Below are positions 4,813 to 39,586 of a stretch of 44,165 nucleotides of DNA, in pieces; the first letter of the stretch is position 1, and every line of letters starts with the position of its first letter. Made by a program: the position numbers and the translations under genes. The DNA is from an uncultured Erysipelotrichaceae bacterium (GTDB lineage Bacteria; Bacillota_I; Bacilli_A; RFN20; CAG-826). The DNA is taken from positions 1-44,165 of the forward strand of contig CADCNT010000013.1 of NCBI GenBank assembly GCA_902802905.1. Reading direction: 5' to 3'. The notes below the pieces were generated by a model. It worked only from the letters and a program-made list of their open reading frames with translations. It was not told where the DNA came from and searched no databases.

Positions 4813-4849
4813 CTTGAAATTCCTCCTAAAACAATGTGTTTTATCTATT

Positions 4850-7960: not shown

Positions 7961-7961
7961 A

Positions 7962-9908: not shown

Positions 9909-9962
9909 ATATACATATATTATAGACAAAACTAGTGTTATATAAATCTTTTTGATTTTCTA

Positions 9963-17156: not shown

Positions 17157-18167
17157 TTATCTTCTATCTCCTGGAAGCTTGTCATGGACGAATAAAGCCA
17201 TAACTGCTTTTGCGGTATGAATTCTATTTTCTGCTTCTTCATAGACAACAGATTGTGGCCCATCGATAACTTCATCAACAACTTCGTTGACTCTATCTGC
17301 TGGAAGAGCATGCATATATCTACATGTTGGTTTGGCTAATGCCATTTTGTCTGGTGTACATTTCCAACCCTTTAACGCTAATAATGCATCATCGACAACA
17401 GTTGTGGATTGATTGGTAACCCAGCTACCCCAGTTCTTAGGGAAGACGACGTCTGCATCTCTATATGCGGCATCCATATCATGGGTGATGGTAAGAGAGC
17501 CACCATGTTCAGCAGCGTTCTTTCTTGCTTTTTCAATAACCCAGTCTGGTAAATCATATCCTTCTGGATAGGCTAATGTAACATCAATTCCGTATCTTGG
17601 GAATAATAAGACTTGAGAAACTGGAACCGAAATTGGTTTCTTGTGAGTTGTGGCCATAGCCCAAATAACAGAGACCTTTAAGTGTTCGGTGTGACCAAAT
17701 TCATCTTCGATGGTCATTAAGTCTGCTAAAGCTTGCATTGGGTGATATAAGTCACATTGTAAGTTGATGATTGGGACTGTTGACCATTTAGCCATTTCTC
17801 TAATGTACTTGTTTCCTAAACCCCAGTTACAGTATCTACAAGCAATCATGTGACCAAAGCTTGATAAGATAACAGCGGTGTCTTTAGCACTTTCCCCATG
17901 AGCAATTTGCATCATAGAGGTGTCTAAGAAGGTAGCGTGTCCACCTAATTGAGCCATACCACTTTCAAAGGAGTTTCTGGTTCTTGTGGATTGTTCGAAG
18001 AACATTAAGAATCCGGTTTTGTTTGTTAGCCAGTCTGTTTGTTCATTCGCGTAGAAAGCATCTTTTAATTCACGAGATACTTTAAGCATGTAGTCGATTT
18101 CTTCTTTAGTGAAATCTTCTAAGGTAATTAAGTGTCTGCCTGCAAAGCGAGGAGCAATTTTTTCCAT
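17157..18167 (-). CDS. ygeW: YgeW-type knotted carbamoyltransferase
   Basis: A 336-residue aspartate/ornithine carbamoyltransferase-fold enzyme. The carbamoyl-phosphate loop STRTR is at residues 60-64, the HPMQ block at 142-145, and a C-terminal MHALPADRVNEV replaces the OTCase HCLP. The ATTHKKPISVPVSQ insertion and the neighbours (YgeY, PLP enzymes, SsnA, hydantoinase, molybdenum hydroxylases) identify it as YgeW rather than ArgF. In purine/urate clusters it is thought to act phosphorolytically on a ureido intermediate, giving carbamoyl phosphate for carbamate kinase, which is encoded at 34895. The ribosome site AAAGGA lies 14 bases upstream, a long spacing. A biosynthetic transcarbamylase is the less likely alternative. 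Confidence 0.85.
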   Translation of the reverse strand: MEKIAPRFAGRHLITLEDFTKEEIDYMLKVSRELKDAFYANEQTDWLTNKTGFLMFFEQSTRTRNSFESGMAQLGGHATFLDTSMMQIAHGESAKDTAVILSSFGHMIACRYCNWGLGNKYIREMAKWSTVPIINLQCDLYHPMQALADLMTIEDEFGHTEHLKVSVIWAMATTHKKPISVPVSQVLLFPRYGIDVTLAYPEGYDLPDWVIEKARKNAAEHGGSLTITHDMDAAYRDADVVFPKNWGSWVTNQSTTVVDDALLALKGWKCTPDKMALAKPTCRYMHALPADRVNEVVDEVIDGPQSVVYEEAENRIHTAKAVMALFVHDKLPGDRR

Positions 18168-18194: not shown

Positions 18195-19409
18195 TTATTT
18201 CTTTAAGTTTTCTAAATAGAGAGATGGCATAACTGCATATAATGCAGCACAGATAACCAAGTCTTCTTTTCTTGTCTTTTCATTTGGTGCGTGTGCTTCT
18301 TTTTCATCACCAGGACCAAATCCTAAGCAAGGAATGCCGTATCTACCCATAATGGAAACACCATTAGTGGAGAATGTCCATTTATCAATGATAGGGGCTT
18401 TTTTGAATAAGCCTTCATAACCTTGTTTCATGGATTGAACAAAGATACTTTCTTCTGGAATAACCCAGGTTGGGAAGTAACATTCTGTTGGATAGAGCAA
18501 ACCAGTATAACTTGGTCTTTCATAGCGATACATCTCAACTTTAGCGTTAGCGGCTTTAACACCTGGTAAAGCTTCAATTTCCGCGATGGAGGTCTTGTCG
18601 TTTTCACCAACAGTTAATCTTCTATCAAGAGAAATCCAGCATCCATCAGCGACTGCACATCTAGATGGTGATTTATGGAAGATCTCACTAATAGTGACTG
18701 TGCCTTTGCCTAAGAATGGGTCATAGGCTAAGCCTTTTTCATTGAGTTCTTTAACTTGCTCAATGATTGGCGCCATCTTATAGATTGCGTTATCTCCTCT
18801 TTCAGGAGCGGAGCCGTGACAGGAAATACCTCTAACAGAGACTTTGATTTCCATTCTTCCACGATGGCCTCTATAAATACGGCAACTAGTTGGTTCAGTA
18901 GAAACGACGAATTCTGGTCTGACTTTATCTTCTTCAATGATGTATTGCCAGCAAAGGCCATCACAGTCTTCTTCTTGGACAGTACCAGTAATCACTAAAG
19001 TGTAGTCGTCTTCTAAACCTAATTCTTTAATGATTTTAGCAGCGTAGACCATTGAGGCCATGCCACCTTCTTGGTCAGATGTACCACGTCCACCGATATA
19101 GACATCATCTTCGAATCCTTTATAAGGATCGAATGTCCAGTTTTTGATTTCGCCAATACCGACTGTGTCGATATGAGCGTCCATACCAATGAGGTGTTTG
19201 CCGTGTCCGATATAGCCTAAGATGTTTCCCATTGGGTCGATCACGACTTTATCAAATCCGACTTTTTCCATTTCTTCTTTAATACGGAGCACTACTTCTT
19301 TTTCCTGACAGGATTCGGAAGGAATAGCGACCATATCGCGGAGGAATTTGACCATATCAGCCTTATAGGCTTGGGCCTTTTCTAATACTTTTTCAAAAGG
19401 GACTTTCAT
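18195..19409 (-). CDS. ygeY: YgeY-type M20 metallohydrolase of purine/selenium-linked clusters
   Basis: A 404-residue M20/ArgE/DapE-family hydrolase. Metal ligands are visible in order: His79 in MDAHIDT, Asp112 in GTSDQEGG, the Glu146-Glu147 pair in VQEEDCDG, Glu in VSTEPTS, and a late His in [12 protein letters not shown] dimerisation domain lies between. In purine clusters YgeY is expected to hydrolyse an amide or ureido bond of a ring-opened purine intermediate, though a peptidase-like activity cannot be excluded from sequence. Its ATG overlaps the TAA of the upstream PLP gene (TAATG), so the two are translationally coupled. Confidence 0.9.
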
Positions 19410-20779
19410 TATTTTAATTCCTTTCCTCTCATCTCTTTAATCTTCTTATCATATTCATGAATCTTGTTGTACTCTTCATCCCAGAAGGACATAGATTTCA
19501 TGCTATCAAGATATTTCTTGGTATAGCCAAATGGTAACCAGTCTTTTTCTTTTTGTTTGAATAAGGCTTCTTTGGCTTCTTTACCACGGGTGTCTAAAAC
19601 CATGTTAGTATCTGCGCCCATAAAGACATCTTCAAACCATCTTTCAAGAACATTAGGAGTAACTTCTAATTCTCTTTCTTTTAAGTTTTGGATAACTGAG
19701 TCATATCTATCAAAGCTATCAGTAGCGATAGTGACCACGTTATCATCTGGTCCTAATTTAAGATATTTAGCCATCTTAATCGAGCCTAAGATATTACAAA
19801 TACCAGAGACACCAAATAAGTTAACCATTTCTTTAGCAACTTTCTTATCCACTCCGTGTTTTTCAAGGATTTCACTACCTTCATGGATAACTTCAAGTCC
19901 ACGGACACAGTCATCATCAACGATTTGAGTGATGAAGTCAGTAGTTAAGACGTTATGGATTAATGTACACATCTTATCGCCAATACCTTCAATACGGTGT
20001 TGTCCACGACCACCATTGGTGAGCGTAGAACATTCATGTGGCTCTAAAGCAACAATTTTACATTCTGGGAAAACAGCTTTAATTTGATCACCAGCCGCTA
20101 ATGTACCAGCACTACCAGGTGCGCTACAGAAAGCAGCAACACGGCCGTTACCGATACCTTTAACAGCTTCGATACAGCTATTACCAGTGACGTGTCTATG
20201 GAAACGATAGTTTGGTAATAATTCGAATTGCGCTAAGGTTCTATTCTTTGGATCCTTCTTTAATTCATATGTTCTTTCAAGAGTCAAGATAACATCGGAT
20301 TCACTACCTGGAGTTAAGTCCAACTTAGCACCATATTTTTGAATTCTTTCATATCTCTCTTTGGACATATTGTCTGGCATGATAACAATAGCGTCATATT
20401 TCATTAAGTTAGTAATGTAGCTAACGCCGATACCAAAGTTACCAGTACTTGGTCCTAAAATGGTGTGTTTTCCTGGAATGATTTCTCCATCCACACAACC
20501 TTCGATTAATGTGGAATAAGCAGGGCCAACCTTATGGCTTCCACTTGGGAAATATTTTCCAAGTAAGACGACGATGTTTGCGTCCACGCCTGTTAAGGCT
20601 TTTGGAAGAACAATCTTATTCACTTCGTCTTTTTCGTTTTTCCAGGTGATATTAAAGAGATTGATAGGATCGAGTTCATTCTCTTTTTTAGCTTTTAAAG
20701 CTTTTTTTCTCACTTCTGGATCTTGATGATTTGGGTTCAACATTTCGTCATATGTTGGACCAAATGGGATTTTTGACAT
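19409..20779 (-). CDS. fold-type II PLP enzyme of the purine cluster (ammonia-lyase-like)
   Basis: A 456-residue PLP enzyme of the cysteine-synthase/TrpB fold. The Schiff-base Lys is probably Lys83 in [12 protein letters not shown], and the phosphate-binding loop is [13 protein letters not shown] (about residues 218-230). It is longer than typical YgeX diaminopropionate ammonia-lyase and does not show the YgeX-type KDESKRFGLNAFK motif. A role in deaminating diaminopropionate or a ureido derivative, releasing ammonia and pyruvate, is inferred from position. An AAGGAG ribosome site precedes the ATG, and the gene starts 2 bp after the other PLP gene. Confidence 0.78.
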
Positions 20780-20781
20780 AT

Positions 20782-22026
20782 TTAAATTACTCCTTTTCCT
20801 TTTAAGTAAATGTCTAACTTGTTAATGTCGGCCTCCATTAACTCTGGTTTAACGATGGCCTTTTGAGCGTTGTTTGGATCTTTAAGTCCATTACCAGTAA
20901 CGATGATAGTCACTGATTCATCTTTAGAGATAATACCTTCTTCAAGCGCTTTACGAAGTCCAGCGACTCCAGTAACACCTGCCGGTTCTCCAAAGATACC
21001 TTCATGTTTTCCAAGTAAGCTCATTGCTTCAATAATTTGTTCATCAGGAACACTAATCCAAGCACCTTTAGAGTATTCGATAGCTCTTAAGGCTTTGATT
21101 GGATTTCTTGGAATACCAACTGCGATAGAATCAGCAATGGTGTTCTCTTCGCACTCTTTGAGTGGTTCATGATTTTTGCTAGCGACCACAAATGGTTCAC
21201 AACCTGTGGATTGTACACCCAAGATACGCGGAACCTTTTTAATTAGTCCTAGCTTGAATAATTCATTGAAGCCTTTATAAACTCCACCGACAGTGCAGCC
21301 ATCACCAACAGAGACGACCACCCAATCAGTCGGTTTAAAATTAAGTTGTTCAGCAATTTCTAAAGAAACAGTTTTCTTTCCTTCCACCATAAATGGATTA
21401 ATTGCTGCGTTACGGTTATACCAACCATATTTATTAATTGCATCCTTTGATAATTTAAAGGCTGCTTTATAATCTCCATCCACCACAACAAGGGTGGCGC
21501 CATATAAGGAGATTTGTGTTAATTTTCCAATAGGAGCACGTTTTGGAACAAAGATGACTGCTGGTAAACCCATATGCGCAGCGTGACAAGCACAGCTACT
21601 AGCAGCGTTACCAGTTGAAGAGCAGGAAATAACTTTCGCTCCCGCTTCAATAGCTTTTAAAACTGCCACGCCACTGGCTCTATCCTTGCTACTGCCGCTA
21701 GGATTGAGACCATCATCTTTAATGTAGAGTTCTTTTAATCCTAATACCTTGGCTAAGTTATGAGATTTTACAAGTGGAGTCCATCCAATTCTTAACATCT
21801 CATCGATATGGTCTTCTTTGATACCCATCATAGGAGCGTATCTCCACATCGAATAGTTATTATTGTTCTTAAAATAGTCTAATGTCAGAACTTTTTTGAG
21901 AGCTTCATAATCATATTCAACGTCCAAGATACCTTTTTCACCACATTCTGGGCAGGTTAAAAGAGCGTCTTTTGTTTCAAAGAATTTTCCACATATTGTG
22001 CATCTATATCCTTTGATATAATTCAT
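20782..22026 (-). CDS. threonine-synthase-like PLP enzyme with N-terminal zinc ribbon
   Basis: A 414-residue fold-type II PLP enzyme. An N-terminal rubredoxin-like zinc ribbon (Cys9, Cys12, Cys25, Cys28) precedes the PLP domain, with Lys114 in NPSGSSKDRASG and a following SSTGNAASSCACHAA typical of threonine synthase. It is annotated by resemblance only. Threonine synthase genes normally sit with thrA/thrB/hom, which are absent here. Its location between a molybdenum hydroxylase and the second PLP gene implies a purine-catabolic substrate such as a 2,3-diamino acid or its ureido derivative. It may act with, or as an alternative to, the downstream PLP enzyme. Confidence 0.78.
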   Translation of the reverse strand: MNYIKGYRCTICGKFFETKDALLTCPECGEKGILDVEYDYEALKKVLTLDYFKNNNNYSMWRYAPMMGIKEDHIDEMLRIGWTPLVKSHNLAKVLGLKELYIKDDGLNPSGSSKDRASGVAVLKAIEAGAKVISCSSTGNAASSCACHAAHMGLPAVIFVPKRAPIGKLTQISLYGATLVVVDGDYKAAFKLSKDAINKYGWYNRNAAINPFMVEGKKTVSLEIAEQLNFKPTDWVVVSVGDGCTVGGVYKGFNELFKLGLIKKVPRILGVQSTGCEPFVVASKNHEPLKECEENTIADSIAVGIPRNPIKALRAIEYSKGAWISVPDEQIIEAMSLLGKHEGIFGEPAGVTGVAGLRKALEEGIISKDESVTIIVTGNGLKDPNNAQKAIVKPELMEADINKLDIYLKGKGVI

Positions 22027-22043: not shown

Positions 22044-22886
22044 TTATTTCACTTGTCTAAGGAAATCTCTAAGCAAGTTTTTGGCGACCACTGTACGATA
22101 TTCTTTGGTTGATCTTTGATCAGTAATAGGTCTGATCTCATGGTCATATTCATTGATAATATCATCGATTCTCGCTCTTAACTCATTTGTGGAGATTCCT
22201 GTATATTTCTCTTCAATCCAGTGGTTTTTGACGACTTTTGTGGAAATACTTCCGAAACAAATTCGTAAATCTTTGACCTTTCCACCTTCAACTTTATAGC
22301 CACCCATAAGAGAAACTTTAGTGATGGTTTCAGCCTTACGACTTCCCACTTTTTTATAATAGAATTTCAAATCTGCAGGTGGGACAATTACCTCAGTGAT
22401 AAGCTCATCTTTTTCACGGTCAATCTTTTTAACACCTTGAATAAAATCTTGAACAAGTACAGTTCTTGTTCCTCTTTTACTTTGTAAGACGACTGATGCA
22501 TTAAATAGGTTAAGTGGCACAATTGAATCTCCAGCAGGAGACGCGTTTGCGATATTGCCCACTAAAGTGGCGGTGTTTCTAATGTTTGGAGAAGCGATTT
22601 CTAGGAAAACAGTCTTAAAGATATCTGGTACGAGTGGTGAATTGATTAATTCGCAGAACCTGGAGATTCCACCAATATGTAAATTGTTTTGGGAATCTAC
22701 TTTAATGTAATCGAGTTCTTTTAAATTCATCACATACAAAATATCTTTATCGAATGCAGGAAGTAGACCACTACTCTTATGCTTTTGCACCATTAAATCA
22801 GTACCACCAGCAAAGATGTAACAATCATGCTCTGAGAGAATATCTAAAGCTTCTTTAAGTGTTTTTGGAACAAAATGATTAATCAT
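22044..22886 (-). CDS. molybdenum hydroxylase FAD-binding subunit, set 1 (XdhB/CoxM-like)
   Basis: A 280-residue flavoprotein subunit of the xanthine dehydrogenase family. The FAD-binding FAGGTDLMVQ is at residues 25-34. The second flavin motif is IRNTATLVGNIANASPAGDS (about 101-120), with the typical AGD signature. It moves electrons from the Fe-S subunit to NAD or another acceptor. Its ATG overlaps the Fe-S subunit TGA (ATGA). Together with the next two upstream genes it forms a complete heterotrimer. Confidence 0.9.
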   Translation of the reverse strand: MINHFVPKTLKEALDILSEHDCYIFAGGTDLMVQKHKSSGLLPAFDKDILYVMNLKELDYIKVDSQNNLHIGGISRFCELINSPLVPDIFKTVFLEIASPNIRNTATLVGNIANASPAGDSIVPLNLFNASVVLQSKRGTRTVLVQDFIQGVKKIDREKDELITEVIVPPADLKFYYKKVGSRKAETITKVSLMGGYKVEGGKVKDLRICFGSISTKVVKNHWIEEKYTGISTNELRARIDDIINEYDHEIRPITDQRSTKEYRTVVAKNLLRDFLRQVK

Positions 22887-23350
22887 AATTTAATTCCTTT
22901 CTCACTTGCGACTTTAACTGCGTCTATGATTGCTTGATAACCAGTACAACGACATAAGTTACCGGATAAAGCAAATCTAATTTCCTCTTCGCTTGGATGA
23001 GGATTCTTTTTTAATAAGGCATAGGTAACAAGAATCATTCCTGGAGTGCAGAAACCACATTGGCTTCCACCTCTATCAGCGAATGCATCAGCAATGATAC
23101 GATATTCTTTTGTTTCTCTAAGCCCTTCAATGGTCATAACATCCCTATCGGCAACATTGATAATTGGAGTTAAGCAAGAATTGACTGGTTCGCCTTTTAC
23201 TAAAACTGTACAGGCTCCGCATTCTCCTTCTCCACATCCTTCTTTTGTGCCTGTTAAATGAAGTTCATTTCTAATGACGTCCAAAAGACGCATTGATGGA
23301 TCGACATCAAGTGTGACTTTATTGTTATTAATCGTAAAACTAATCTTCAT
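22883..23350 (-). CDS. molybdenum hydroxylase [2Fe-2S] subunit, set 1 (XdhC/CoxS-like)
   Basis: A 155-residue protein with two [2Fe-2S] clusters. The plant-ferredoxin-type set is GCGEGECGACTVLV with a later Cys in VNSC. The helical-domain set is QCGFCTPG and NLCRCTGY. All eight cysteines expected for the family are present. It relays electrons between molybdopterin and FAD. It starts inside the molybdopterin subunit gene (11-bp overlap) and ends in TGA within the FAD subunit start. Confidence 0.93.
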   Translation of the reverse strand: MKISFTINNNKVTLDVDPSMRLLDVIRNELHLTGTKEGCGEGECGACTVLVKGEPVNSCLTPIINVADRDVMTIEGLRETKEYRIIADAFADRGGSQCGFCTPGMILVTYALLKKNPHPSEEEIRFALSGNLCRCTGYQAIIDAVKVASEKGIKL

Positions 23351-25430
23351 GGTTCATTAACTCCATAATATATTCAGGTGTTGCAGGGATATTGTGAACT
23401 TTATGTTTGATTGCTTGCTCTAACGCTAAAGCAAAAGCAGGAGCACCACCAACAAATGTTAATTCGCCTGCTCCTTTTGCACCGAAAGCACCATACTTAA
23501 ATGGATTATCAATAATCTCAGTTTCCATAGGTGGTAAATCCATAGAAGTAGGAATGGCGTAGTCTGCTAATGCTTTTTGTTTAAACATGCCATCTTCTGC
23601 AACTTCTTTTTCTAAATATGCCCAACCTAAAGCTTGCGCTAATCCGCCATCAGCTTGTCCAAGTAAAATTCTTTCATCTATCGCGTGACCGACATCATAA
23701 GTAGACCAGCAGCCTTCAACAGTAGCTTCATATGTAATTGGATTGACTGATACTTCAACAACATTCACACCCCATGCATATCCTGGGTAAGCATCACCTT
23801 GCATAGTGGCTTCATCCCATTTGATATAACTTGGTCCAACGTAAGGTTCTACAATTTCTTGTTCTTCTCCGTCTTTCCAAATGGCTTTTAAGTGCTGAGC
23901 TGCTTTAGCCGCTAATCCGCCAACAATAATGATGGTTCTACTAGCGGCAGTTGGACCGGTAGACAAAGTCTCGTTGGTGTCTGGTGCGCCATATATAACA
24001 TGGTCTTCAGGAATTCCTAAAGTATCAACAACAATACGTTTTAATGTAGTTCTATTGCCTTGGCCGAAATCAACTTGAGAAGTATAGAAAGTAACGATGC
24101 CATTCTTATCTTTTTTAATTCTTAATTTGGCCTTAATTAAATCGCTTTCTCCACTACCAGTAAATCCACATCCATGTAAGAACATTGATAAGCCGATACC
24201 TCTTAATGAACCTGGTTTAGAGTAGAGTTTGACTTTACGTTTATAATCAGACATCTCCATCGCTTTTTCAATAAGTGGTTCAAGGATAATTGGATCTCTA
24301 AAGATGCCGCTTGTGGATGTAACATCGTTGGTCTTAACAAGGTATTTCATTCTTAACGCCATGCGGTCAACTTTAAGATAGTCTGCTAGATGGTTAATAA
24401 ATAATTCCATAGCGAAGATAGATTGAGGAGAACCAAATCCTCTAAATGCGGCACTTGGAACTTTATTTGTACAATAAGCATCGCCAGAAATAGCAACGTT
24501 AGGGAAAGTATATGTATTCGTGGCAGCAATTAACGCTCTAGAAAGAACAACCATAGAGCAACCGATATAAGCACCACCATCAATGCCAACATGAATCTTC
24601 ACACCGATGATATTATCTTTCTTATCCATATAGGCTGAAATTTCAGTTTTGGATGGATGTCTTTTGGTTGTGTATGTAATGTCTTCTCTACGATCGAAGA
24701 ACATCTTGATTGGTTTTTTAATTTTTACAATTGCGGTAGCAAGTTGCGCAGCCATCAAAGATGGATAATGTTCTTTGCCACCGAAAGCACCACCAACAGC
24801 AGGTTGAATTACTCTCACTTTGTCTTCGGTAACACCTAAGGTTCTACAGATAGCCTTATGGATATAGAAAGGACATTGCATTGATGCTTTAACAACGATT
24901 TGATCGTTTTCTAAATACATCAACATTGCTTGTGGTTCTAAATAGATTTGTTCTTGATATCCAGTAGTAAATTCTTCAGAGAAAACTTTAGCAGCATCCT
25001 TAAATAAAGAGACATCACCTTTGGTGAATTCTTTATGAACATAAGAATTTCTCATATCAAAGACAGGTTCTAAATCTTCATAGATGCCTTTTACTTGTTT
25101 TGATAAATCAATACATTTCTCTTTATCAGGACCAATAATTAAACCAATTGTCTCACCGATATAATTGACCTTCTTATCTGCAAAGACCGGCCAATCTGAA
25201 GCAATGATATTCACTACATTTTCTTTAACGATATCTTTGGCGGAAATGAAATAATAATTCTTTGGAAGTTTAGGCACTTCAATTCCCTTAAGTTTAGCGT
25301 GAGCCTTTTCGCTTCTAACATTGATAGCAAAATAAGCGTTATCCATACGAATATCGCCAGTGAAAATGGCTAATCCCGCCATCTTCTCTTCGTTATCTAC
25401 TTTTGTGACTGATGTATCGAACTTTTTCAT
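23340..25430 (-). CDS. molybdenum hydroxylase molybdopterin subunit, set 1 (xanthine dehydrogenase family)
   Basis: A 696-residue molybdopterin-binding subunit, somewhat shorter than the usual 750-780. The family blocks are in order: VGGAFGGKEHYPSL, PSAAFRGFGSPQ, the DFGQGNRTT cofactor loop, and the active-site Glu in GAKGAGELTFVGG near the C-terminus. It would hydroxylate a purine or related heterocycle, using water as oxygen donor. Substrate (urate, xanthine, hypoxanthine or an opened ring) cannot be read from sequence. The second set differs clearly (AYRGYG instead of AFRGFG), so the two probably act on different substrates. Confidence 0.88.
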   Translation of the reverse strand: MKKFDTSVTKVDNEEKMAGLAIFTGDIRMDNAYFAINVRSEKAHAKLKGIEVPKLPKNYYFISAKDIVKENVVNIIASDWPVFADKKVNYIGETIGLIIGPDKEKCIDLSKQVKGIYEDLEPVFDMRNSYVHKEFTKGDVSLFKDAAKVFSEEFTTGYQEQIYLEPQAMLMYLENDQIVVKASMQCPFYIHKAICRTLGVTEDKVRVIQPAVGGAFGGKEHYPSLMAAQLATAIVKIKKPIKMFFDRREDITYTTKRHPSKTEISAYMDKKDNIIGVKIHVGIDGGAYIGCSMVVLSRALIAATNTYTFPNVAISGDAYCTNKVPSAAFRGFGSPQSIFAMELFINHLADYLKVDRMALRMKYLVKTNDVTSTSGIFRDPIILEPLIEKAMEMSDYKRKVKLYSKPGSLRGIGLSMFLHGCGFTGSGESDLIKAKLRIKKDKNGIVTFYTSQVDFGQGNRTTLKRIVVDTLGIPEDHVIYGAPDTNETLSTGPTAASRTIIIVGGLAAKAAQHLKAIWKDGEEQEIVEPYVGPSYIKWDEATMQGDAYPGYAWGVNVVEVSVNPITYEATVEGCWSTYDVGHAIDERILLGQADGGLAQALGWAYLEKEVAEDGMFKQKALADYAIPTSMDLPPMETEIIDNPFKYGAFGAKGAGELTFVGGAPAFALALEQAIKHKVHNIPATPEYIMELMNHED

Positions 25431-25434
25431 TTTA

Positions 25435-26520
25435 TTAAAACTTTATTGCCTTAACTGGACATTTAGATGCACATAATCCACATCTAAAACATTTATTTGC
25501 ATTGAATGTTGGGCAGTTATCTTCACCCATACTAATTGCAAAATAAGGACAATTTCTTTCACATAATTTACAGTGTGTGCATTTTTCTTTATTCACACTT
25601 GGCATCTCATGTTCATAAGTCACTCTATTTGTAAGCTGAGTATCAATAACTTCTTGAACAGAGGAGAAACCATATTTTTCTAACTCTTTTGGAAGATCCG
25701 CAATAACTTTGGCGTATAATTCTTTTCCTCTTAACATTGGAGCGGAAAGCATACCAACTGCGCTAGCTCCAGCTAATAAGAATTCGATAACGTCTTTTGC
25801 GGATGCACAGCCACCAACACCGATAACAGTTAATGATGGTTCTGCTTGTTTAATGGTATAGACAGTAGCTAAAGCAAGTGGTTTAACAACCGGGCCACTC
25901 ATCCATACAAAACCCTTATCATTTGAGCAAGCCATTTGACGCTTTTCGACATCAATAACCATACTAGGGCCCAGTGAATTAATAGCAACAACACCGTTGG
26001 CGCCATTTTCTTTAATCACTCTAGCAAAACCTGCTGGATCAGGAATGTGTGGTGAAATTTTCATATAGAAAGGCTTAGAGGTAAGTCTTCTAATAGTTCT
26101 TACAGTTTCTCCAACTTTTTCATGGTCAGTGCCAACATAGTGACAGCTCACTTCAAAGGCATCAGCGAATTTATCTAATAATGGAATAAGCACTTCCATA
26201 TCTTCTTTGGTATAGCCAACAGAGATGATAAGAGGTGTATCTCCTTTTTTAGCAACGAGTTCTGGTAAGAATTCATCAATCCATTTTTCTTTTGGATATT
26301 CAGTCCATAATTCACAGTTAAAGATTGCGTTTTGCCCTTCACCAATAATACATGGGTGTGGGATGTGAGCATCTTTTGTGGAAATGGTCTTGGCCACTAA
26401 TGCACCTAATCCTTGGTCTTTAAGCCATAACATTTTTTCAGCATCACCAACTAAAGGACCTGCTGCAGGCATTAAAGGATTCTTAAGCACTAAGCCATCA
26501 AATTTTGTCGAAAGATCCAT
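25435..26520 (-). CDS. PreA-like dihydroorotate-dehydrogenase-fold flavoprotein with two [4Fe-4S] clusters
   Basis: A 361-residue FMN barrel of the dihydroorotate/dihydropyrimidine dehydrogenase family: LKNPLMPAAGPL, FEVSCHYVG, YMKISPH, VVAINSLGPS and IGVGGCASAKD. A C-terminal bacterial ferredoxin domain carries CTHCKLCERNCP and CFRCGLCASKCP. E. coli PreA works with the NAD-binding PreT, but no PreT is visible here. In this operon it may reduce a C=C bond of the purine ring or of an opened pyrimidine-like intermediate, which is inference. It is separated by 4 bp and 1 bp from its neighbours. Confidence 0.86.
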   Translation of the reverse strand: MDLSTKFDGLVLKNPLMPAAGPLVGDAEKMLWLKDQGLGALVAKTISTKDAHIPHPCIIGEGQNAIFNCELWTEYPKEKWIDEFLPELVAKKGDTPLIISVGYTKEDMEVLIPLLDKFADAFEVSCHYVGTDHEKVGETVRTIRRLTSKPFYMKISPHIPDPAGFARVIKENGANGVVAINSLGPSMVIDVEKRQMACSNDKGFVWMSGPVVKPLALATVYTIKQAEPSLTVIGVGGCASAKDVIEFLLAGASAVGMLSAPMLRGKELYAKVIADLPKELEKYGFSSVQEVIDTQLTNRVTYEHEMPSVNKEKCTHCKLCERNCPYFAISMGEDNCPTFNANKCFRCGLCASKCPVKAIKF

Positions 26521-26521
26521 C

Positions 26522-27820
26522 TTATTTCTCCTTCACTCTCTTCCAGAGTTCTTTACTATATTTTCTTGATTCTAAAAGTTCAGTTTTTGCCTTTTTAGAA
26601 ACTAGTTCGTAATTCTTTACTAAACGTGCACCGTCAACATAGACATCGCAAGGTTTAAAGTTAGGGAATAAGCCATAGAAGATATGCCCAAATGCATTAT
26701 CACCATTCATTTCGGTAAATGGAGTATAAGGAAGTAACATAAAATCAGAGACATATCCTTCTTTAATCTTGCCAATCTTAATGTTGAGTCGACGTCCAAC
26801 ATAGTCATAAGCGTTGTTGATACAATCAAGAATATGACCAATATTCATCGCGGTTGGTGATTGATTCTTTAAGTGAGTCAGATACATGGCGTTTAAATAC
26901 TCAGTAGCCATAGAACTTGATAAACCATCATTACCAATCATCACTGGAATCTTTTTATCCATGAATTTTTTAATATCCGTAATACCAACTGCGTTATTTA
27001 AGTTGCTAGTGGTGTTAACAACCATATAGGCTTTACGTTCTTTAACGATATCTAATTCTTTATCAGAAAGGAAAACACCATGGACGATAAGAGAGTCCTT
27101 ATTAATCAAATTATGTTTGTCTAACCTTTCAATAATTGAAGTATGATATTTGGCTACGCAATCAGCTTCATCCATATCACTTTCCGCAACGTGGATATGA
27201 ATTGGTAAGTCTTTTAGTTTTCTAGAAATTTTCTTTAATGTCATTTCACTAAGCGACATAGAGGCATGCATACCAAATAAACCTGTTACATGGTCAGTGT
27301 GATATCGTTTAGCAAAGCTAACATTCTCTTTAATACACTCATCAACTGGATAACGGTCACTAGTTTCAAAGCAAAGAATACTTCTAAGATGTAAGGTGTT
27401 ATCTAAAGCTTTCTTTAAAGAAGTTAATGAGCCAAGGATTTCAGTACCTGATGCATGATGATCAATAATTGTAGTCACACCGTTTAAAAGGAATTCACTG
27501 CCAGCAGCAATACCAGAATAATAAGTGATTGGATTATCAATCTTTGAATCGAGCTTCCACCACATCTGATCCAAAATCTCTTGGAAGTTAAGCGGATTAA
27601 ATGGAAGAGCTAGTCCACGAGCAAATATTGAATAGATGTGAGAATGTGCGCAAACAAAGTTAGGCATTAAAAGTTGACCCTTGCCGTCTATAACTTGATA
27701 GCCATCGTTTTTAAATTCGGACATCTTTCCCACTTTAAGAATAGTTTTGTCAAAAACAACAAAACCATTTTCAATGTAGTTTTGATAGTCAAAAATTCGA
27801 ACGTTAATTAATGCTTTCAT
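26522..27820 (-). CDS. ssnA: SsnA-like aminohydrolase (amidohydrolase family)
   Basis: A 432-residue metal-dependent amidohydrolase. It has the CAHSHIYS metal motif, HIHVAESD, IVHGVFL and the IGNDGLSSS aspartate, all in the order of the ATZ/TRZ-SsnA subfamily. SsnA is a constant member of bacterial purine/urate clusters and is expected to open or deaminate a purine-derived ring. The exact step is not certain from sequence. It is 2 bp after the hydantoinase and 1 bp before the PreA-like gene. Confidence 0.87.
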   Translation of the reverse strand: MKALINVRIFDYQNYIENGFVVFDKTILKVGKMSEFKNDGYQVIDGKGQLLMPNFVCAHSHIYSIFARGLALPFNPLNFQEILDQMWWKLDSKIDNPITYYSGIAAGSEFLLNGVTTIIDHHASGTEILGSLTSLKKALDNTLHLRSILCFETSDRYPVDECIKENVSFAKRYHTDHVTGLFGMHASMSLSEMTLKKISRKLKDLPIHIHVAESDMDEADCVAKYHTSIIERLDKHNLINKDSLIVHGVFLSDKELDIVKERKAYMVVNTTSNLNNAVGITDIKKFMDKKIPVMIGNDGLSSSMATEYLNAMYLTHLKNQSPTAMNIGHILDCINNAYDYVGRRLNIKIGKIKEGYVSDFMLLPYTPFTEMNGDNAFGHIFYGLFPNFKPCDVYVDGARLVKNYELVSKKAKTELLESRKYSKELWKRVKEK

Positions 27821-27822
27821 AA

Positions 27823-29124
27823 CTATTTCTCACAGTTTACTAACTTACCAGTTGTCTTATAGAATTTTCCATCTTTTAAGGCGAATTTCCCTCTGACTAA
27901 AGTGGACACAATTGTGTTACTTAAATGAATTCCTTCATAGATAGAGTAGTCGGCTTTACCATGTGGTTTCTTAATCACTTGAGGATCACTAGACATAACC
28001 ACCAAATCGGCGTAATTTCCAACTTTTATACCATTTTTGTTGGCAAATCTTTGAATTTTTGCCACATTTTTACACATTTTATCGATAACTTTTTCACCAA
28101 AAATTTCATACATTGTAAGGAAACTTGTTTCGATTCCACCAACACCTAAAGGCATGCCTTTTAGTAAGGTATGGGATTCTTTATCTTCTTTATTAAATGA
28201 GCAATGATCAGTGCCAATGCATGAGATATAATCGAAATATTCCCAAAGCAATTTTCTTGATTCTTCATCTCTTAGAGGTGGGGCAAAGGTATATAGGTAA
28301 CCATTGTCTTTTTTGAGCACTTCATTACTATAAACAAAGTATTGAGGGCATGATTCAATGATGATGTATTTGCCAATATATTTTTCGTATCTTTCTACAA
28401 TAGCCTTCAAAGTGCGTCCACTAGAACAATGAACCATATATAGATGCCCTCTAGTGCTAACTGCATACTTACAAAGTTTTAGCGCTTCTTCAGTTTCTGC
28501 TTGTTCACATCTTGCTTCAGGAAGGTCTTTATACGTTAAGTTCTCATCGTGTTTAATTAATTCATCCTTTTCAATATGTGCTTCCACAATGAAGTGATAT
28601 CTACGGGATAGCTTAAGTAATTTAATGATGTCTTTATCATATGTTCTTCGATGGGTTTCTGAATATGTGGTGAATAATTTAATGGAATTAATTCCTAACT
28701 CTTTCATTTTTAAAACATATTCTTCTAAATCGCCATTAGGTTCTTTAATGCAAGCATGGAAATGGTAATCCACTCCACACTTCTTTGCTAAGGCAAGTCT
28801 AGCTTTATATGTCTCCACTAGTTCTTTAGCGTTTCTACTTGGATCAAGGAAATCGATGATTGTAGTCACTCCACCATAAGCAGCGGTCTTGCCACCATAA
28901 TAGAAATCATCCCTAGAGGTAATCGTGCCACAATAAAGTTCAAAATGAACATGAGGATCGATAAATCCAGGAAGAATTCTGGAGTGTTTTAAATCAATCG
29001 TTCTTTTCGCAGGAACTTTTTCTTTACCAATATAAGATATCTTTTCTTCGGTGATGCCGATAGAAACATCACGATATCTTCCATTGATATAAGCAAAACC
29101 ATTTACTAAAAGTAAATCGACCAT
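27823..29124 (-). CDS. hyuA: dihydropyrimidinase/hydantoinase-like cyclic amidohydrolase
   Basis: A 433-residue cyclic amidohydrolase. Metal-site motifs in order are GFIDPHVHFEL, the Lys in INSIKLFTTYSE that would be carbamylated, VEAHIEKDE, YMVHCSSG and the IGTDHCSFN aspartate. Hydantoinases open five- or six-membered ureide rings, which suits cleavage of a reduced purine or hydantoin-like intermediate. It stands 2 bp from both neighbours, in the heart of the operon. Allantoinase is a possible alternative, but the anaerobic cluster context favours hydantoinase. Confidence 0.87.
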   Translation of the reverse strand: MVDLLLVNGFAYINGRYRDVSIGITEEKISYIGKEKVPAKRTIDLKHSRILPGFIDPHVHFELYCGTITSRDDFYYGGKTAAYGGVTTIIDFLDPSRNAKELVETYKARLALAKKCGVDYHFHACIKEPNGDLEEYVLKMKELGINSIKLFTTYSETHRRTYDKDIIKLLKLSRRYHFIVEAHIEKDELIKHDENLTYKDLPEARCEQAETEEALKLCKYAVSTRGHLYMVHCSSGRTLKAIVERYEKYIGKYIIIESCPQYFVYSNEVLKKDNGYLYTFAPPLRDEESRKLLWEYFDYISCIGTDHCSFNKEDKESHTLLKGMPLGVGGIETSFLTMYEIFGEKVIDKMCKNVAKIQRFANKNGIKVGNYADLVVMSSDPQVIKKPHGKADYSIYEGIHLSNTIVSTLVRGKFALKDGKFYKTTGKLVNCEK

Positions 29125-29126
29125 AT

Positions 29127-31454
29127 TTATTTCTTTAATTCCTTAAGTCCTTTTAAGATCTTTTCTGGGGTGATTGGTAATGTGTGTACACGTACACCTG
29201 TCGCATTATAAATCGCGTTACAAATAACAGCTGGAGGTGTATCAATACCAATTTCGCCAACTGATTTTGCACCAAATGGACCAGTAGGTTCATAAGAATC
29301 AGCAAACTCAGATGTAAGTTTATGAATCTCTTTATGAGTTGGGATGTGATAGCTAAGGAAATTATTACTTAGTAAATTGCCTTTCTTATCATATTTCACA
29401 TCTTCAAAACACGCCATACCTAAGCCTTGAACGACACCACCTTCAACTTGTCCTCTAGCAAGCATTGGGTTAATTGTGGTTCCAGAGTCGGTTACTGTTA
29501 CATAATTGAGTATTTCATATTCACCTGTTTCTAAGTCAACTTCCACTTCAGCATATGCTGCCATGAATGGAGGTGGAGAAACATGGCCGAAATATGATTC
29601 AGTAACACTGACTTGATGTAAGTCTTTGTTATATAACCATTGAACGCTTAAATCATATAAGCTGACATGTTTATCTTTCGCTGTAAATAATTTGCCGTCG
29701 AATTCAACATCGTCTTCTTTAACACCTAAGAAGGCCGCTGCTTCTTTAATTAGTCTTGCTCTCATCTTTTGAGCAGCTTTCCATGCAGCGTTGCCACTGA
29801 TGTAAGTTGTTGAAGAAGCATACGCTCCGCAGTCAAACGGAGTTAAATCTGTATCTGAAGAATAAACGAGAATATCTTCGAGTGGGACTTCTAATTCTTC
29901 AGCAACAATCTTAGCGATTAATGTGTCACTGCCTTGACCAATATCGGTAGCGCCAACTAAAACATTGAAGCTACCACCATCGTTGAGTTTAATAGTGCAG
30001 CTACCCATATCCATAAATGGAATACCGCTACCTTGCATAGCAATAGCCATGCCATATCCTCTAACTTTATTTTCACCAACAACTTTTCTTGGCCAATTCT
30101 CTTTCCAGTTAATTAATTCAGCACCACGCTTAATACAATATGGAAGTTTACATGATTCCATAATCATCGCAGTACCTTTGGTACCTTCACCCATAATTTC
30201 AAAGATTGGGGAAGTCTCTTTCTCTCTCATCGAATTCTTTTCACGGATTTCTTTTGGATTCATGCCAAGCTTCTCCGCTAAGATATCGATTGTGGCTTCT
30301 AAAGCATAGTTACCTTGAATCGCACCATATCCACGATAGGCACCTGCTGGTACGTGGTTTGTATAAACAACTTGTCCGCCAAACTTAACTGCGTCAACTT
30401 TATTATATAAAGGTAACACTTTACTACCAACAATCATAAAGACAGTTAATGAGTGTTCACCATATGCACCAGTGTCAGATAATGAACGACAATCAATCGC
30501 GTTAATTCTGCCATCTTTCATCGCACCAATACGCATACGGATACGCATTGGGTGACGTGTATAACTAGCCCCAAAGACTTCTTCTCTTGTATAGACCATC
30601 TTGGATGGTTTGCCCGTTCTTAATGTAGTTAAAGCACAGAAGAATTCTCCATGGAACGCTTGTTTACCACCAAAGCCACCACCAACGCGTGGTTTGATAA
30701 ATCTAATCTTCGAAACTGGTAACCCTAATGTGGTTGCCATAATTCTTCTCATATGGAATGGGGTTTGTGTGGAAGAATAAATCACTAAACGATTATGTTC
30801 ATCTAGTCTAGCGTTACTAGAGTGCGTTTCAAGCATTGCGTGTGCTTGTGCTTGCGAATAAAATGTTTCATCAACAATAACGTCGGATTTCTTTAATTCT
30901 TCTTCGACATTGCCAACTTCCATCTCATAAGATGCAGCAACATTCTTTTTTGGATCAAAGCCAATTGGGAACATTTCGCAAATGCCATCTTCTGGATGGA
31001 TAACGGATTTATTTTCAAACGCTGTTTCAAAATCTAAAACAGGTTCTAAAACTTCATATTCAACTTTAATTAATTTGAGTGCTTCTTCAGCAGTTCTTTC
31101 ATCTATTGCCGCCACCATAGCGACTTCGTCACCAACATAGCGAACATACTCATCAAGAATGAATTTGTCATGTGGTGATGGCTCTGGATATCCTTGTCCT
31201 GCTCTTGAGAAAGAGACATGTGGAACATCCTTATAAGTTAAAACCAGGGCCACTCCGTTGAGTTTTTGCGCTTCAGAGACATCGATTGACTTGATGTGTG
31301 CAAAAGCGTGAGGTGATCTTAAAATCTTAATTACTAAACTATTTTGTTCTGCTAAATCGTCAGTGTAGAAACTTCTACCTTGCATGAGACCAACGCCATC
31401 AATGGAGTGAGTCTTATGATTAACGACTCTGAATTTCTTTTTATCGTATGTCAT
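29127..31454 (-). CDS. molybdenum hydroxylase molybdopterin subunit, set 2 (xanthine dehydrogenase XdhA/XdhD-like)
   Basis: A 775-residue subunit of canonical length. It contains RVGGGFGGKQAFHGEF, VPAGAYRGYGAIQGN, the DIGQGSDTLI cofactor loop, CGAYASSTTYISGNA and the active-site Glu in SVGEIGIDTPP. AYRGYG rather than AFRGFG is usual in the selenium-dependent and nicotinate-type branches of the family, so a selenide-containing cofactor is possible but cannot be seen from sequence. AGGAG lies 9 bases before the ATG. Its Fe-S and FAD partners directly precede it. Confidence 0.9.
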   Translation of the reverse strand: MTYDKKKFRVVNHKTHSIDGVGLMQGRSFYTDDLAEQNSLVIKILRSPHAFAHIKSIDVSEAQKLNGVALVLTYKDVPHVSFSRAGQGYPEPSPHDKFILDEYVRYVGDEVAMVAAIDERTAEEALKLIKVEYEVLEPVLDFETAFENKSVIHPEDGICEMFPIGFDPKKNVAASYEMEVGNVEEELKKSDVIVDETFYSQAQAHAMLETHSSNARLDEHNRLVIYSSTQTPFHMRRIMATTLGLPVSKIRFIKPRVGGGFGGKQAFHGEFFCALTTLRTGKPSKMVYTREEVFGASYTRHPMRIRMRIGAMKDGRINAIDCRSLSDTGAYGEHSLTVFMIVGSKVLPLYNKVDAVKFGGQVVYTNHVPAGAYRGYGAIQGNYALEATIDILAEKLGMNPKEIREKNSMREKETSPIFEIMGEGTKGTAMIMESCKLPYCIKRGAELINWKENWPRKVVGENKVRGYGMAIAMQGSGIPFMDMGSCTIKLNDGGSFNVLVGATDIGQGSDTLIAKIVAEELEVPLEDILVYSSDTDLTPFDCGAYASSTTYISGNAAWKAAQKMRARLIKEAAAFLGVKEDDVEFDGKLFTAKDKHVSLYDLSVQWLYNKDLHQVSVTESYFGHVSPPPFMAAYAEVEVDLETGEYEILNYVTVTDSGTTINPMLARGQVEGGVVQGLGMACFEDVKYDKKGNLLSNNFLSYHIPTHKEIHKLTSEFADSYEPTGPFGAKSVGEIGIDTPPAVICNAIYNATGVRVHTLPITPEKILKGLKELKK

Positions 31455-31457
31455 CTT

Positions 31458-31907
31458 TTACTCCTCCTTTAAATATGCTTTGATAGCGTTAAGTTGGCTT
31501 TGCATGCCACTACATCTACATAAGTTGCCAACGATGTAATCTTTAATTTCATCATCGGTTGGATTTTTGAGTTCTCTTTTTAAAGCATAGATTGTTAAGG
31601 CATAACCTGCGTTACAGAACCCACATTGATCTGCACCTTCTTCACCAAAGAAATAAGCAATTCTAGCAGCTTCTTCTTGAATACCTTCTACTGTAGTAAT
31701 GTGTTTGCCTTCAATAGAAGCAGATAATATACCACAGGACATGGCTGGTCTATTTTCTAAAAGAACAGTACAAGATCCACATGAAGTCTCATTACATCCA
31801 ACTTTAACGGATTTAACACCATGACTTCTAAGAGTTTCGGCTAAATATTCATCTGGCCTGACATCATAAGAAACACGAACGTTATTTAGATAAAATGTAA
31901 CTAACAT
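31458..31907 (-). CDS. molybdenum hydroxylase [2Fe-2S] subunit, set 2
   Basis: A 149-residue subunit with GCNETSCGSCTVLL plus MSC for the ferredoxin-type cluster and QCGFCNAGY with NLCRCSGM for the second cluster. It is clearly diverged from the set 1 partner (NETS instead of GEGE, NAGY instead of TPGM), so this is an independent trimer rather than a recent duplication. It overlaps the FAD subunit stop by 1 bp. Confidence 0.93.
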   Translation of the reverse strand: MLVTFYLNNVRVSYDVRPDEYLAETLRSHGVKSVKVGCNETSCGSCTVLLENRPAMSCGILSASIEGKHITTVEGIQEEAARIAYFFGEEGADQCGFCNAGYALTIYALKRELKNPTDDEIKDYIVGNLCRCSGMQSQLNAIKAYLKEE

Positions 31908-32701
31908 TATTTATTGACCTCCTCTAAGCCTCTTCTCACATAAACTTTAGCGAGATCGATACGATATTCTTTAGAAGCATCTTTATTATCTAAGAACGAT
32001 AATTCCTCAACAGCCATTTCTGCCGCTTTAGCAAAATCTTCCTTAGATGGATTTTTCAAAGAATTAATATATTCCATTGCTTTAAGTGCTAAAGAGGCAA
32101 CTGCAGGACGTGCTCCAACAGCGATACGATATTGGCCGTTAACTCTACTAACCGCAATATTGACAATTGGGAAATCAAGGGCGGTTGTTTTAACTTTTTT
32201 ATAGAAACCTTTACCTTGTCCTTTTTTAATATGGATAGCTACTAAAATAGCGTTCAATTTTCCTTTGTAGGAAAGATAATCTTCAAGAAACATAGTTTGT
32301 TTTGGATAGAATTCCAATTCAACATCATAGGGGAGTAAACCTGTAATCACATCGGAGAATGGATATCTACCCATAATAGAGCCACCAATAGTGGCGAGGT
32401 TTCTAAAATTAACACCCATTACTTCACGAGTGGAAAAGGCAATCGCATCATTAAATAAAGCTTTTACAACTGGAGAATTCTCAAAATCTCTTTGGCTGAC
32501 CATTGATCCTACTACTACTTCGTTTTTAGAATCCTTGATTTCGTTTAAACCTAAAGAAGAGATGTCGATTAAAGTTTCATGACTTTGGCCAATTTTCTTC
32601 AGCCATAAGCCACCACCTAAAATCGTATTTCTTGGATTTTCTTGAAGTTTAGAATATGCATCTTCAAGACTCGATGCACGGTAGTACTTGTTAACTATCA
32701 T
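31907..32701 (-). CDS. molybdenum hydroxylase FAD-binding subunit, set 2
   Basis: A 264-residue FAD subunit. The first flavin loop is ILGGGLWLKKIG (about residues 27-38), a variation on the usual AGGTDL. The second is VNFRNLATIGGSIMGRYPFSD (about 96-116), where the family's ASPAGD is replaced by GRYPFSD. Flavin binding may therefore differ from set 1. The C-terminal CO-dehydrogenase flavoprotein domain (IAVGARPAVASLAL) is recognisable. It sits 1 bp after mocA. Confidence 0.84.
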   Translation of the reverse strand: MIVNKYYRASSLEDAYSKLQENPRNTILGGGLWLKKIGQSHETLIDISSLGLNEIKDSKNEVVVGSMVSQRDFENSPVVKALFNDAIAFSTREVMGVNFRNLATIGGSIMGRYPFSDVITGLLPYDVELEFYPKQTMFLEDYLSYKGKLNAILVAIHIKKGQGKGFYKKVKTTALDFPIVNIAVSRVNGQYRIAVGARPAVASLALKAMEYINSLKNPSKEDFAKAAEMAVEELSFLDNKDASKEYRIDLAKVYVRRGLEEVNK

Positions 32702-32702
32702 A

Positions 32703-33266
32703 CTATCTTCCTTTCAAACTAATATCGATATTAGCGAAATCGTTAATATCGTTCAGATTCATGATTATGTTTTTATCTTCAACATTAATTATTTCACACT
32801 TTTTACTGTCGCGAAACATTTTTAGATTATTATCTAAGCCATAATTGAGTAATTCGTTTTTATATTTCTTTGATATATAAAGTGGATGACCTTCTTGACC
32901 GTGATAAATAGGATATCGGATATCTTCTTTAGAAGATAATATTGCTTCAAAAGTACTCTTTTGGATAAACGGACAATCTCCTGGAAGGACAAAAAAATCT
33001 TCTTTAGTTTCTTTCACTCCAGTAAGAACACTAGAAAACATTCCTAGTTCATAATCCTTGTTATAAACAAAGGTAACATCAAGATTGCCTAAAGCTTCTT
33101 TTATCTCTTTATCATATCGGCCAGTAACCACTATTACACGTGATACAAAAGGGGCAACGCTTTGAATTGTGTGCCACAGTAAAGGATGACCTTTGTAATC
33201 CAAAAGCATCTTGTTTGTTCCCATTCTAGTGGACTTGCCACCTGCAAGGATTATCGCTTCAGCCAT
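32703..33266 (-). CDS. mocA: molybdenum cofactor cytidylyltransferase (MocA family)
   Basis: A 187-residue nucleotidyltransferase. The N-terminal LAGGKSTRMGTNKMLL (about residues 7-22) is the NTP-binding signature, VLPGDCPFI is the metal-binding Asp motif, and GHPLYISKKY matches MocA/MobA-like proteins. MocA adds CMP to molybdopterin to make MCD, the cofactor form used by xanthine-dehydrogenase-type hydroxylases, which fits the two trimers downstream. It is first in the purine operon. No ribosome site precedes the ATG; TATAAT ends 6 bases before it. Confidence 0.85.
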   Translation of the reverse strand: MAEAIILAGGKSTRMGTNKMLLDYKGHPLLWHTIQSVAPFVSRVIVVTGRYDKEIKEALGNLDVTFVYNKDYELGMFSSVLTGVKETKEDFFVLPGDCPFIQKSTFEAILSSKEDIRYPIYHGQEGHPLYISKKYKNELLNYGLDNNLKMFRDSKKCEIINVEDKNIIMNLNDINDFANIDISLKGR

Positions 33267-34827: not shown

Positions 34828-34846
34828 GGCAATATATTACTATTTT

Positions 34847-34875
34847 TTGCGATTTAATTCATTAAGGTATATTAT
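34847..34875 (+). promoter_or_regulatory. sigma-70-type promoter of carbamate kinase
   Basis: TTGCGA (34847-34852), 17-base spacer, TATTAT (34870-34875). The ribosome site GAGG is at 34883 and the start at 34895. Confidence 0.6.
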
Positions 34876-34894
34876 TCTTACTGAGGTAAAAACA

Positions 34895-38488: not shown

Positions 38489-38489
38489 A

Positions 38490-39575: not shown

Positions 39576-39586
39576 ATTTTTCTCCT

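Follow-up and report, generated by a model that had tools for sequence, protein, structure and literature searches.

A predicted UacX-type yanthine reductase in a near-complete reductive urate operon of an uncultured Erysipelotrichaceae bacterium

An open reading frame on the minus strand (25435-26520) of a 44,165-nucleotide stretch of DNA from an uncultured Erysipelotrichaceae bacterium (contig CADCNT010000013.1, referred to here as the window) encodes a 361-residue protein with the fold of a dihydroorotate dehydrogenase (DHOD). The locus raises the question of which ring such an enzyme reduces and where its electrons come from. Pfam placed a DHO_dh domain (PF01180) at residues 3 to 280 (E 2.3e-29), together with 4Fe-4S domains, and found no FAD or NAD domain in the protein. 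The FMN-binding barrel is followed by a C-terminal domain with two CxxCxxCxxxCP motifs, the first [4Fe-4S] motif being CTHCKLCERNCP (residues 314 to 325; 25546-25581, minus strand) and the second CFRCGLCASKCP (residues 344 to 355; 25456-25491, minus strand). A gene for an SsnA-like amidohydrolase lies 1 bp upstream and one for the large subunit of a molybdenum hydroxylase 4 bp downstream. The first-pass annotation had described a two-[4Fe-4S] flavoprotein of the DHOD fold between SsnA and a molybdenum hydroxylase, and the open reading frame, Pfam domains, cysteine motifs, and neighboring genes all confirmed that description.

Family models for known enzymes of this fold matched the protein below their cutoffs: 130.3 bits against NCBIfam PreA (equivalog cutoff, 335) and 157.6 and 152.3 bits against the pyrD models NF005574 and TIGR01037 (about 270 required). 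An AlphaFold model (mean pLDDT 79.5, weak at residues 54 to 71 and 200 to 211) found its best fold matches in pig dihydropyrimidine dehydrogenase (DPD) and DHOD B, with an rmsd of at least 8.7 Å in the rows listed; because the superposition was poor, no active-site geometry was taken from the model.

A published pathway offers an identity for the protein. In the reductive urate pathway, XdhD converts urate to yanthine (2,8-dioxopurine), yanthine is reduced by YgfK, or by UacX in Clostridioides difficile, and SsnA opens the ring to give ureidomethyl-hydantoin, after which HyuA, YgeW or UacY, YgeY, and YgeX act (PMC12507026). A commentary gives the same pathway and leaves the order of ureido cleavage open (PMC12990295). 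UacX was described in 2025 by Li et al. in C. difficile (UniProt Q181U4); together with E. coli SsnA it turned yanthine into ureidomethyl-hydantoin in vitro, the single enzymes were inactive on yanthine, and product was detected only once SsnA had been added (PMC12507026). The donor in that assay was reduced methyl viologen, ferredoxin being the donor proposed for the cell, and E. coli YgfK likewise acts on yanthine in vitro (PMC12507026). We consider it very probable that the product of 25435-26520 is a yanthine reductase of the UacX type, a reading that rests on gene order, co-occurrence, the exclusion of YgfK, the replacement of YgfK in place, and kinship to the UacX of a C. difficile relative.

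The gene belongs to a tightly spaced run of minus-strand genes (33266 to 16504; intergenic gaps of −11 to 27 bp) that makes up a near-complete urate operon of the reductive type. The run begins with a MocA-like molybdenum cofactor cytidylyltransferase (32703-33266) and continues with the FAD subunit (XdhB/YgfM-like; 31907-32701), the [2Fe-2S] subunit (31458-31907), and the molybdenum subunit (29127-31454) of an XdhD-type enzyme, a predicted urate-to-yanthine reductase. The molybdenum subunit is 37.8% identical to E. coli XdhD and 34.1% identical to E. coli XdhA, and it carries the insertion that holds Glu606 of E. coli XdhD, here Glu423 (30186-30188). Next come a HyuA-type hydantoinase (27823-29124; 27.2% identity to E. 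coli HyuA, with D-hydantoinase the best NCBIfam match at 214 bits, below its cutoff of 393) and the SsnA-type amidohydrolase (26522-27820; 28.9% identity to E. coli SsnA and 354.5 bits against NCBIfam SsnA, below the equivalog cutoff of 444), for which ring opening of dihydro-yanthine is predicted. Downstream of the reductase lies a second hydroxylase, a presumed xanthine dehydrogenase, whose large subunit (23340-25430) lacks the Glu606 insertion and is accompanied by a [2Fe-2S] subunit (22883-23350) and a FAD subunit (22044-22886). The minus-strand run goes on with a threonine-synthase-like enzyme (20782-22026) and a CysK-like enzyme (19409-20779), both pyridoxal phosphate (PLP) enzymes and candidate substitutes for YgeX; a YgeY hydrolase (18195-19409; 682 bits against a cutoff of 321.5, 71% identity to E. 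coli YgeY); and a carbamoyltransferase (17157-18167). The last is 35.5% identical to E. coli YgeW, and its role as YgeW is presumed; its best NCBIfam match is ornithine carbamoyltransferase (257 bits; cutoff, 281), and it reaches 191 bits of the 453 set for the YgeW model. A carbamate kinase in the role of YqeA is encoded on the plus strand (34826-35812; arcC, 386 bits, above the cutoff; 52.6% identity to E. coli YqeA).

Several other genes of the window were noted in passing. Open reading frames at 16504-17154 and 35884-37200, which flank the operon, have no Pfam or NCBIfam match and show low similarity (28 to 39%) to their counterparts in the few matching relatives. Farther off, 2506-9929 holds two proteins with F5/8 type C domains, one of them a GH84 beta-N-acetylglucosaminidase, as well as a BspA-type leucine-rich-repeat protein, which are likely to serve host glycan or surface interaction. 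At 37334-42150, a 2-hydroxyacid dehydrogenase, a class V aminotransferase, a DUF1015 protein, and a glutamate dehydrogenase follow one another in a cluster resembling one for serine biosynthesis.

Co-occurrence was examined in a sample of 392 genomes of the phylum, with UacX called at E ≤ 1e-140. Close homologs of the window protein (at least 60% identity) were present in 22 of these genomes, the next homolog having an E value of 6.4e-37, and in all 22 an SsnA match ended within 30 bp of the UacX match. SsnA matched at E ≤ 1e-60 in 32 of the 392 genomes, in 28 of them with at least 299 bits. YgfK (TIGR03315, 835 bits) rose over its cutoff in none of the 22 UacX genomes, and the genome of the window had none either. 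Conversely, all six SsnA genomes (at least 299 bits) without UacX had YgfK; it was over the cutoff and adjoined SsnA in five, and in the sixth (G255) it was a fragment at a contig end. Four SsnA-like rows of one family (f11, 204 to 219 bits), with neither UacX nor YgfK, were read as other amidohydrolases and left out of the count.

One genome, G343, shows the exchange in place. Its operon (L188) runs XdhD-type enzyme, yqeB-like gene, HyuA, SsnA, YgfK, second hydroxylase trimer, ThrC-like enzyme, CysK-like enzyme, and YgeY, so that a full-length YgfK (42% identity to E. coli YgfK) occupies the exact slot of UacX between SsnA and the second hydroxylase. Three genomes of the same family (f31) as G343, namely, G330, G331, and G394, carry UacX. 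Among the computational results, this natural swap speaks most strongly for the two enzymes carrying out the same step. The first-pass annotation had proposed that the protein reduces a purine ring and so opens it to hydantoinase-type cleavage, and had put forward co-occurrence with YgfK, absent from the window, as a check; reduction of a purine ring before SsnA and HyuA act and the replacement of YgfK are both supported.

A scan of genome contigs gave 179 confirmed stretches with relatives of the gene, of which the best 80 were compared. SsnA was the nearest matched gene upstream in 79 of the 80 loci and the second hydroxylase lay downstream in 76; in the exceptions (one upstream and four downstream), UacX stood at a contig edge. 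The loci were labeled as metagenome-assembled genomes or strains of Bacilli, Bacillota, Mycoplasmatota, and the like, several of them Izimaplasma or Izemoplasma, and came from goat, buffalo, other rumen, horse, and sediment. Nothing among the literature matches listed dealt with urate or purine degradation in Izemoplasma. Three of the 80 loci were labeled Clostridia (L098, L108, and L115), and UacX matches at E ≤ 1e-35 occurred in 15 of 341 sampled genomes of the class of L115 (Clostridia by title), 10 of them close (57 to 64% identity) and 5 more distant (31 to 40%).

In these comparisons C. difficile UacX was represented by that of a close relative, G718 (locus L218), one of the five genomes with more distant matches, and not by the C. 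difficile sequence itself. An RpoB fragment of G718 differed at about 10 of 707 positions, counted by eye, from PDB chain 7l7b_C, which we take to be from C. difficile. The UacX cluster of G718 includes a PF07969 protein that fits UacY, and its XdhD shares 25.3% identity with that of E. coli, against a published 25.63% for C. difficile XdhD (PMC12507026). The window protein was 35.4% identical to G718 UacX and 29% identical to the PreA of its own genome. A tree of 43 rows joined the window-type UacX with the C. difficile type in one group (93/92, below the starred support level), from which PreA (100/100) and DHOD (100/100) stood apart; a second paralog clade, with the second copy of G718 and that of G602, also fell outside the group. 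In this UacX2 clade (L219:9171-10256 and L220:9108-10241), ELVSY replaces ESTHYVG, and its genes adjoin SsnA-like proteins and molybdenum hydroxylases. The locus of G602, another Clostridia genome (L220:9108-19500), has a YgfK-like open reading frame of 549 residues and a UacX2-type gene near SsnA-like genes, possibly as a double or transitional cluster.

We infer that the window protein does what C. difficile UacX does. Both combine an FMN domain with a two-cluster ferredoxin domain, have no FAD module, and are encoded beside SsnA in a reductive urate cluster, and the E-x-S-T-H-Y-V-G type of signature, discussed below, was seen in the close relative (L218). The two differ in sequence, at about 35% identity by the G718 proxy, and in having Cys at position 126 of the window protein, and their clusters differ as well: in the window, both a FAD subunit and the Glu606 insertion belong to the XdhD-type enzyme, UacY gives way to a carbamoyltransferase and a carbamate kinase, and where YgeX is missing a different pair of PLP enzymes is found.

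As for the electron supply, no PreT or Pyr_redox protein was found among 40 scanned open reading frames (38 by Pfam and 2 by NCBIfam only) of the 47 in the window of at least 90 residues; the 40 comprise all frames of that length but seven on the plus strand that overlap larger minus-strand genes. The earlier remark that no PreT lies beside the gene holds. A PreT does occur elsewhere in the genome (G000:C9:1552-2655), yet it adjoins its own PreA (G000:C9:347-1513; the pair at L189:347-2655) and is distant from the urate operon. Furthermore, four UacX genomes (G333, G256, G245, and G397) that are 95 to 96% complete, and so 4 to 5% incomplete, gave no match better than 1e-17 to the NAD module of YgfK/PreT and no PreA at E ≤ 1e-15, and a fifth (G021, 82% complete) also gave none better than 1e-17 to the YgfK NAD module; at PreT-like places in the genus, such matches lie near 1e-51 to 1e-60. 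Because there are UacX genomes without a clear PreT, dependence of UacX on PreT is unlikely. Pyruvate:ferredoxin oxidoreductase (PFOR) was found in every one of 23 genomes searched (22 with UacX and one other), so that reduced ferredoxin should be available; it is the likely electron donor, though the evidence is indirect here as in the published work (PMC12507026). A precedent is PydAc of Clostridium chromiireducens, a FAD-less uracil reductase that accepts reduced ferredoxin or methyl viologen as donor (PMC7332683); it is encoded in a Pyd cluster and, by its published description (PMC7332683), differs from UacX in acting on uracil.

The alternative is that yanthine is reduced with electrons from NADH, delivered through the adjacent hydroxylase trimer or the distant PreT and not by ferredoxin, and the FAD subunits nearby (22044-22886 and 31907-32701) and the PreT at G000:C9:1552-2655 would make this feasible. 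We nevertheless judge it unlikely. The trimer is kept beside YgfK in G343 (L188), although YgfK has a NAD(P)H module of its own, and the main UacX cluster of G718 (L218) has no open reading frame matching the FAD-subunit references, though the second G718 cluster (L219) does have FAD subunits; both observations speak against the trimer as donor, and the four nearly complete genomes without a PreT-like match better than 1e-17 speak against PreT. Of the two electron sources named by the first-pass annotation, ferredoxin or the hydroxylase trimer, the low-potential, ferredoxin-like one is the likelier and the trimer an unlikely donor.

At the active site, the protein departs from its relatives of the same fold. 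In PreA and DHOD, the barrel carries an N-x-S-C-P catalytic loop, in which Cys671 of pig DPD is the proton donor (PMC8097209). At the signature position, E-x-N-x-S-C-P was present in all four PreA and all six DHOD rows, and the N-x-S-C-P loop was found in none of 95 UacX rows (from 92 distinct loci, as three from Clostridia were entered twice). The window protein has EVSCHYVG instead (residues 123 to 130; 26131-26154, minus strand), and the pattern E[VIL]S[TCA]HYVG was matched by 95 of 95 UacX rows, 0 of 4 PreA rows, and 0 of 6 DHOD rows. The spacing from this Cys or Thr to a conserved Lys was 28 in UacX (7 rows) and 27 in YgfK (3 rows), against 37 in PreA (3 rows) and 35 in DHOD (2 rows); the Cys671-type loop is shortened in UacX. 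Cys126 of the window protein was considered as a conserved catalytic cysteine and rejected: of 81 rows (the window and the best 80 of the 179 loci), 62 have Thr and 19 have Cys at position 126; all 10 further Clostridia rows, including 3 that repeat loci of the 80, have Thr, as do three of the 4 C. difficile-type rows, the fourth having Ala. Cys is found in the genus of the window and Thr in most rows, and because the position is mostly Thr, a conserved catalytic cysteine is not a trait of the UacX family. His127 and Tyr128, invariant in 95 of 95 rows, are candidates for catalysis.

These features bear on whether the protein is a dihydropyrimidine dehydrogenase of the PreA or PydAc type, acting on uracil or thymine and present in a purine operon by chance. 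It shares with PreA of PreAT the DHOD barrel, two [4Fe-4S] clusters, and an N-x-E motif, its NCBIfam match to PreA reaches 130 bits, and pig DPD is its best fold match. PreA, however, works with PreT and keeps the N-x-S-C-P loop, and it is 29% identical to the window protein, whose score lies far under the cutoff of 335; a separate PreA-PreT pair is present in the genome, and chance placement would have to account for an SsnA adjacency of 22 of 22, the exclusion of YgfK, and the in-place YgfK swap. The absence of the catalytic loop, the weak match to PreA, and the gene context led us to reject a uracil reductase, which we consider highly improbable.

The UacX signature has a likeness in YgfK (TIGR03315), an enzyme of about 1,000 residues with its own FAD/NAD(P)H module and remote similarity to UacX, which acts at the same step of the pathway and holds the same operon slot in G343. 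The window protein has PHPCI at residues 54 to 58 (26347-26361, minus strand), of which PCI is also found in YgfK and was seen in none of the printed PreA or DHOD rows, and NCELWTE at residues 68 to 74 (26299-26319, minus strand), in which N-x-E is common to PreA and YgfK and the nearby Trp is shared with YgfK only. The N-terminal domain of YgfK has PCI and S-T-x-H, along with the short spacing to the conserved Lys, and its Trp near N-x-E stands one residue before the UacX position; N-x-E and Trp were read from alignments, as a pattern search for N-x-E..W missed YgfK. A YgfK profile of 7 rows (6 distinct) matched UacX at 93.0% (E 3.5e-7) over the N-terminal 430 residues and at 86.0% (E 5.1e-6) over the whole of YgfK, and it matched the four C. 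difficile-type rows alone at 93.5% (E 2.3e-7). Controls gave 0.1% for reversed UacX, at most 1.9% for 20 column shuffles, 0.3% for SsnA, 0.2% for HyuA, 0.1% for the ThrC-like enzyme, 3.1% for PreA, 0.4% for DHOD, and 0.6% for the UacX2 clade; PreA and DHOD together reached 47% (E 2e-4), in the C-terminal half only. The S-T-H of UacX was placed on S-T-x-H in the alignment with the C. difficile type and not in the first UacX-YgfK alignment. We tentatively propose that UacX and the FMN domain of YgfK form one purine-specific DHOD branch without the catalytic-Cys loop, with PCI, the Trp near N-x-E, and S-T(C)-(x)-H as a candidate yanthine site. The odds of this proposal, which we put at somewhat below even, are lowered by the disagreement of the alignments, the Trp offset, the presence of N-x-E in PreA as well, and the small number of YgfK rows. 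The loss of the catalytic-Cys loop in UacX and the motifs common to YgfK are apparently new; in the main text of the UacX report (PMC12507026), in which the words "cysteine" and "threonine synthase" are absent, shared motifs could stand in the supplements.

The Glu606 insertion of XdhD has been linked to yanthine formation (PMC12507026). Of 54 XdhD-type rows of at least 700 residues, 52 have it and the remaining two start at a locus edge; none of the 68 rows of the second hydroxylase has it. E. coli XdhA lacks it, and so does the XdhD of the C. difficile relative. The XdhD-type trimer with its FAD subunit (29127-32701) is most likely the urate-to-yanthine reductase, leaving the second trimer as a presumed xanthine dehydrogenase. 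This assignment is made less sure by the XdhD of the C. difficile relative, with no insertion, and by G753 (L215, 19.5 kb), in which the sole hydroxylase found near UacX is of the second type. Yanthine, and not urate or xanthine, the compounds that the first-pass annotation had put forward for an assay, is most likely the substrate of the window enzyme: direct reduction of urate or xanthine without prior dehydroxylation would suit a gene in a urate operon and is chemically reasonable, but it is highly improbable given an XdhD-type gene with the Glu606 insertion in the operon and a slot shared with YgfK, since E. coli YgfK, whose homolog fills that slot in G343, and C. difficile UacX both use yanthine in vitro. 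An assay of the window enzyme on urate or xanthine could therefore give a false negative.

The end of the pathway probably differs from the published one. A search for YgeX (TIGR03528, E ≤ 1e-20) found it in none of 24 UacX Bacilli genomes and in one of 5 YgfK-type genomes. Of the 80 loci, 56 extend more than 7.5 kb downstream, and in all 56 ThrC-like and CysK-like PLP enzymes were found and YgeX was not; the same pair occurs in two YgfK-type operons (L188 and L190). The pair is a candidate for a new last step, as a lyase plus a racemase or as two lyases. UacX operons without YgeX and with two other PLP enzymes are apparently a new observation.

Taken together, these results suggest the following route. 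Urate would first be reduced to yanthine by one of the operon's molybdenum hydroxylases, most likely the XdhD-type enzyme (29127-32701). In UacX, two low-potential electrons, whose source is most likely reduced ferredoxin, would travel by way of the two [4Fe-4S] clusters to FMN and serve to reduce a ring C=C bond of yanthine. SsnA would hydrolyze the dihydro product to ureidomethyl-hydantoin and so draw the reaction onward. From there, HyuA, YgeY, and the carbamoyltransferase together with the carbamate kinase would take the breakdown as far as diaminopropionate.

An enzyme of this kind was already in print as UacX (2025), and the idea of the first-pass annotation proves largely right. The loci described here add Bacilli of rumen and gut, and sediment bacteria resembling Izemoplasma, to the range of the pathway, and they show a hybrid form of operon in which a FAD-bearing XdhD stands together with a FAD-less UacX. 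The absence of YgeX points to an uncharacterized last step. If the common branch is real, the two yanthine reductases would share one catalytic domain, to which YgfK adds a NAD(P)H module. The YgfK/UacX swap and the common motifs suggest a sequence test to tell enzymes that reduce purine rings from those that reduce uracil, and they single out residues for mutation.
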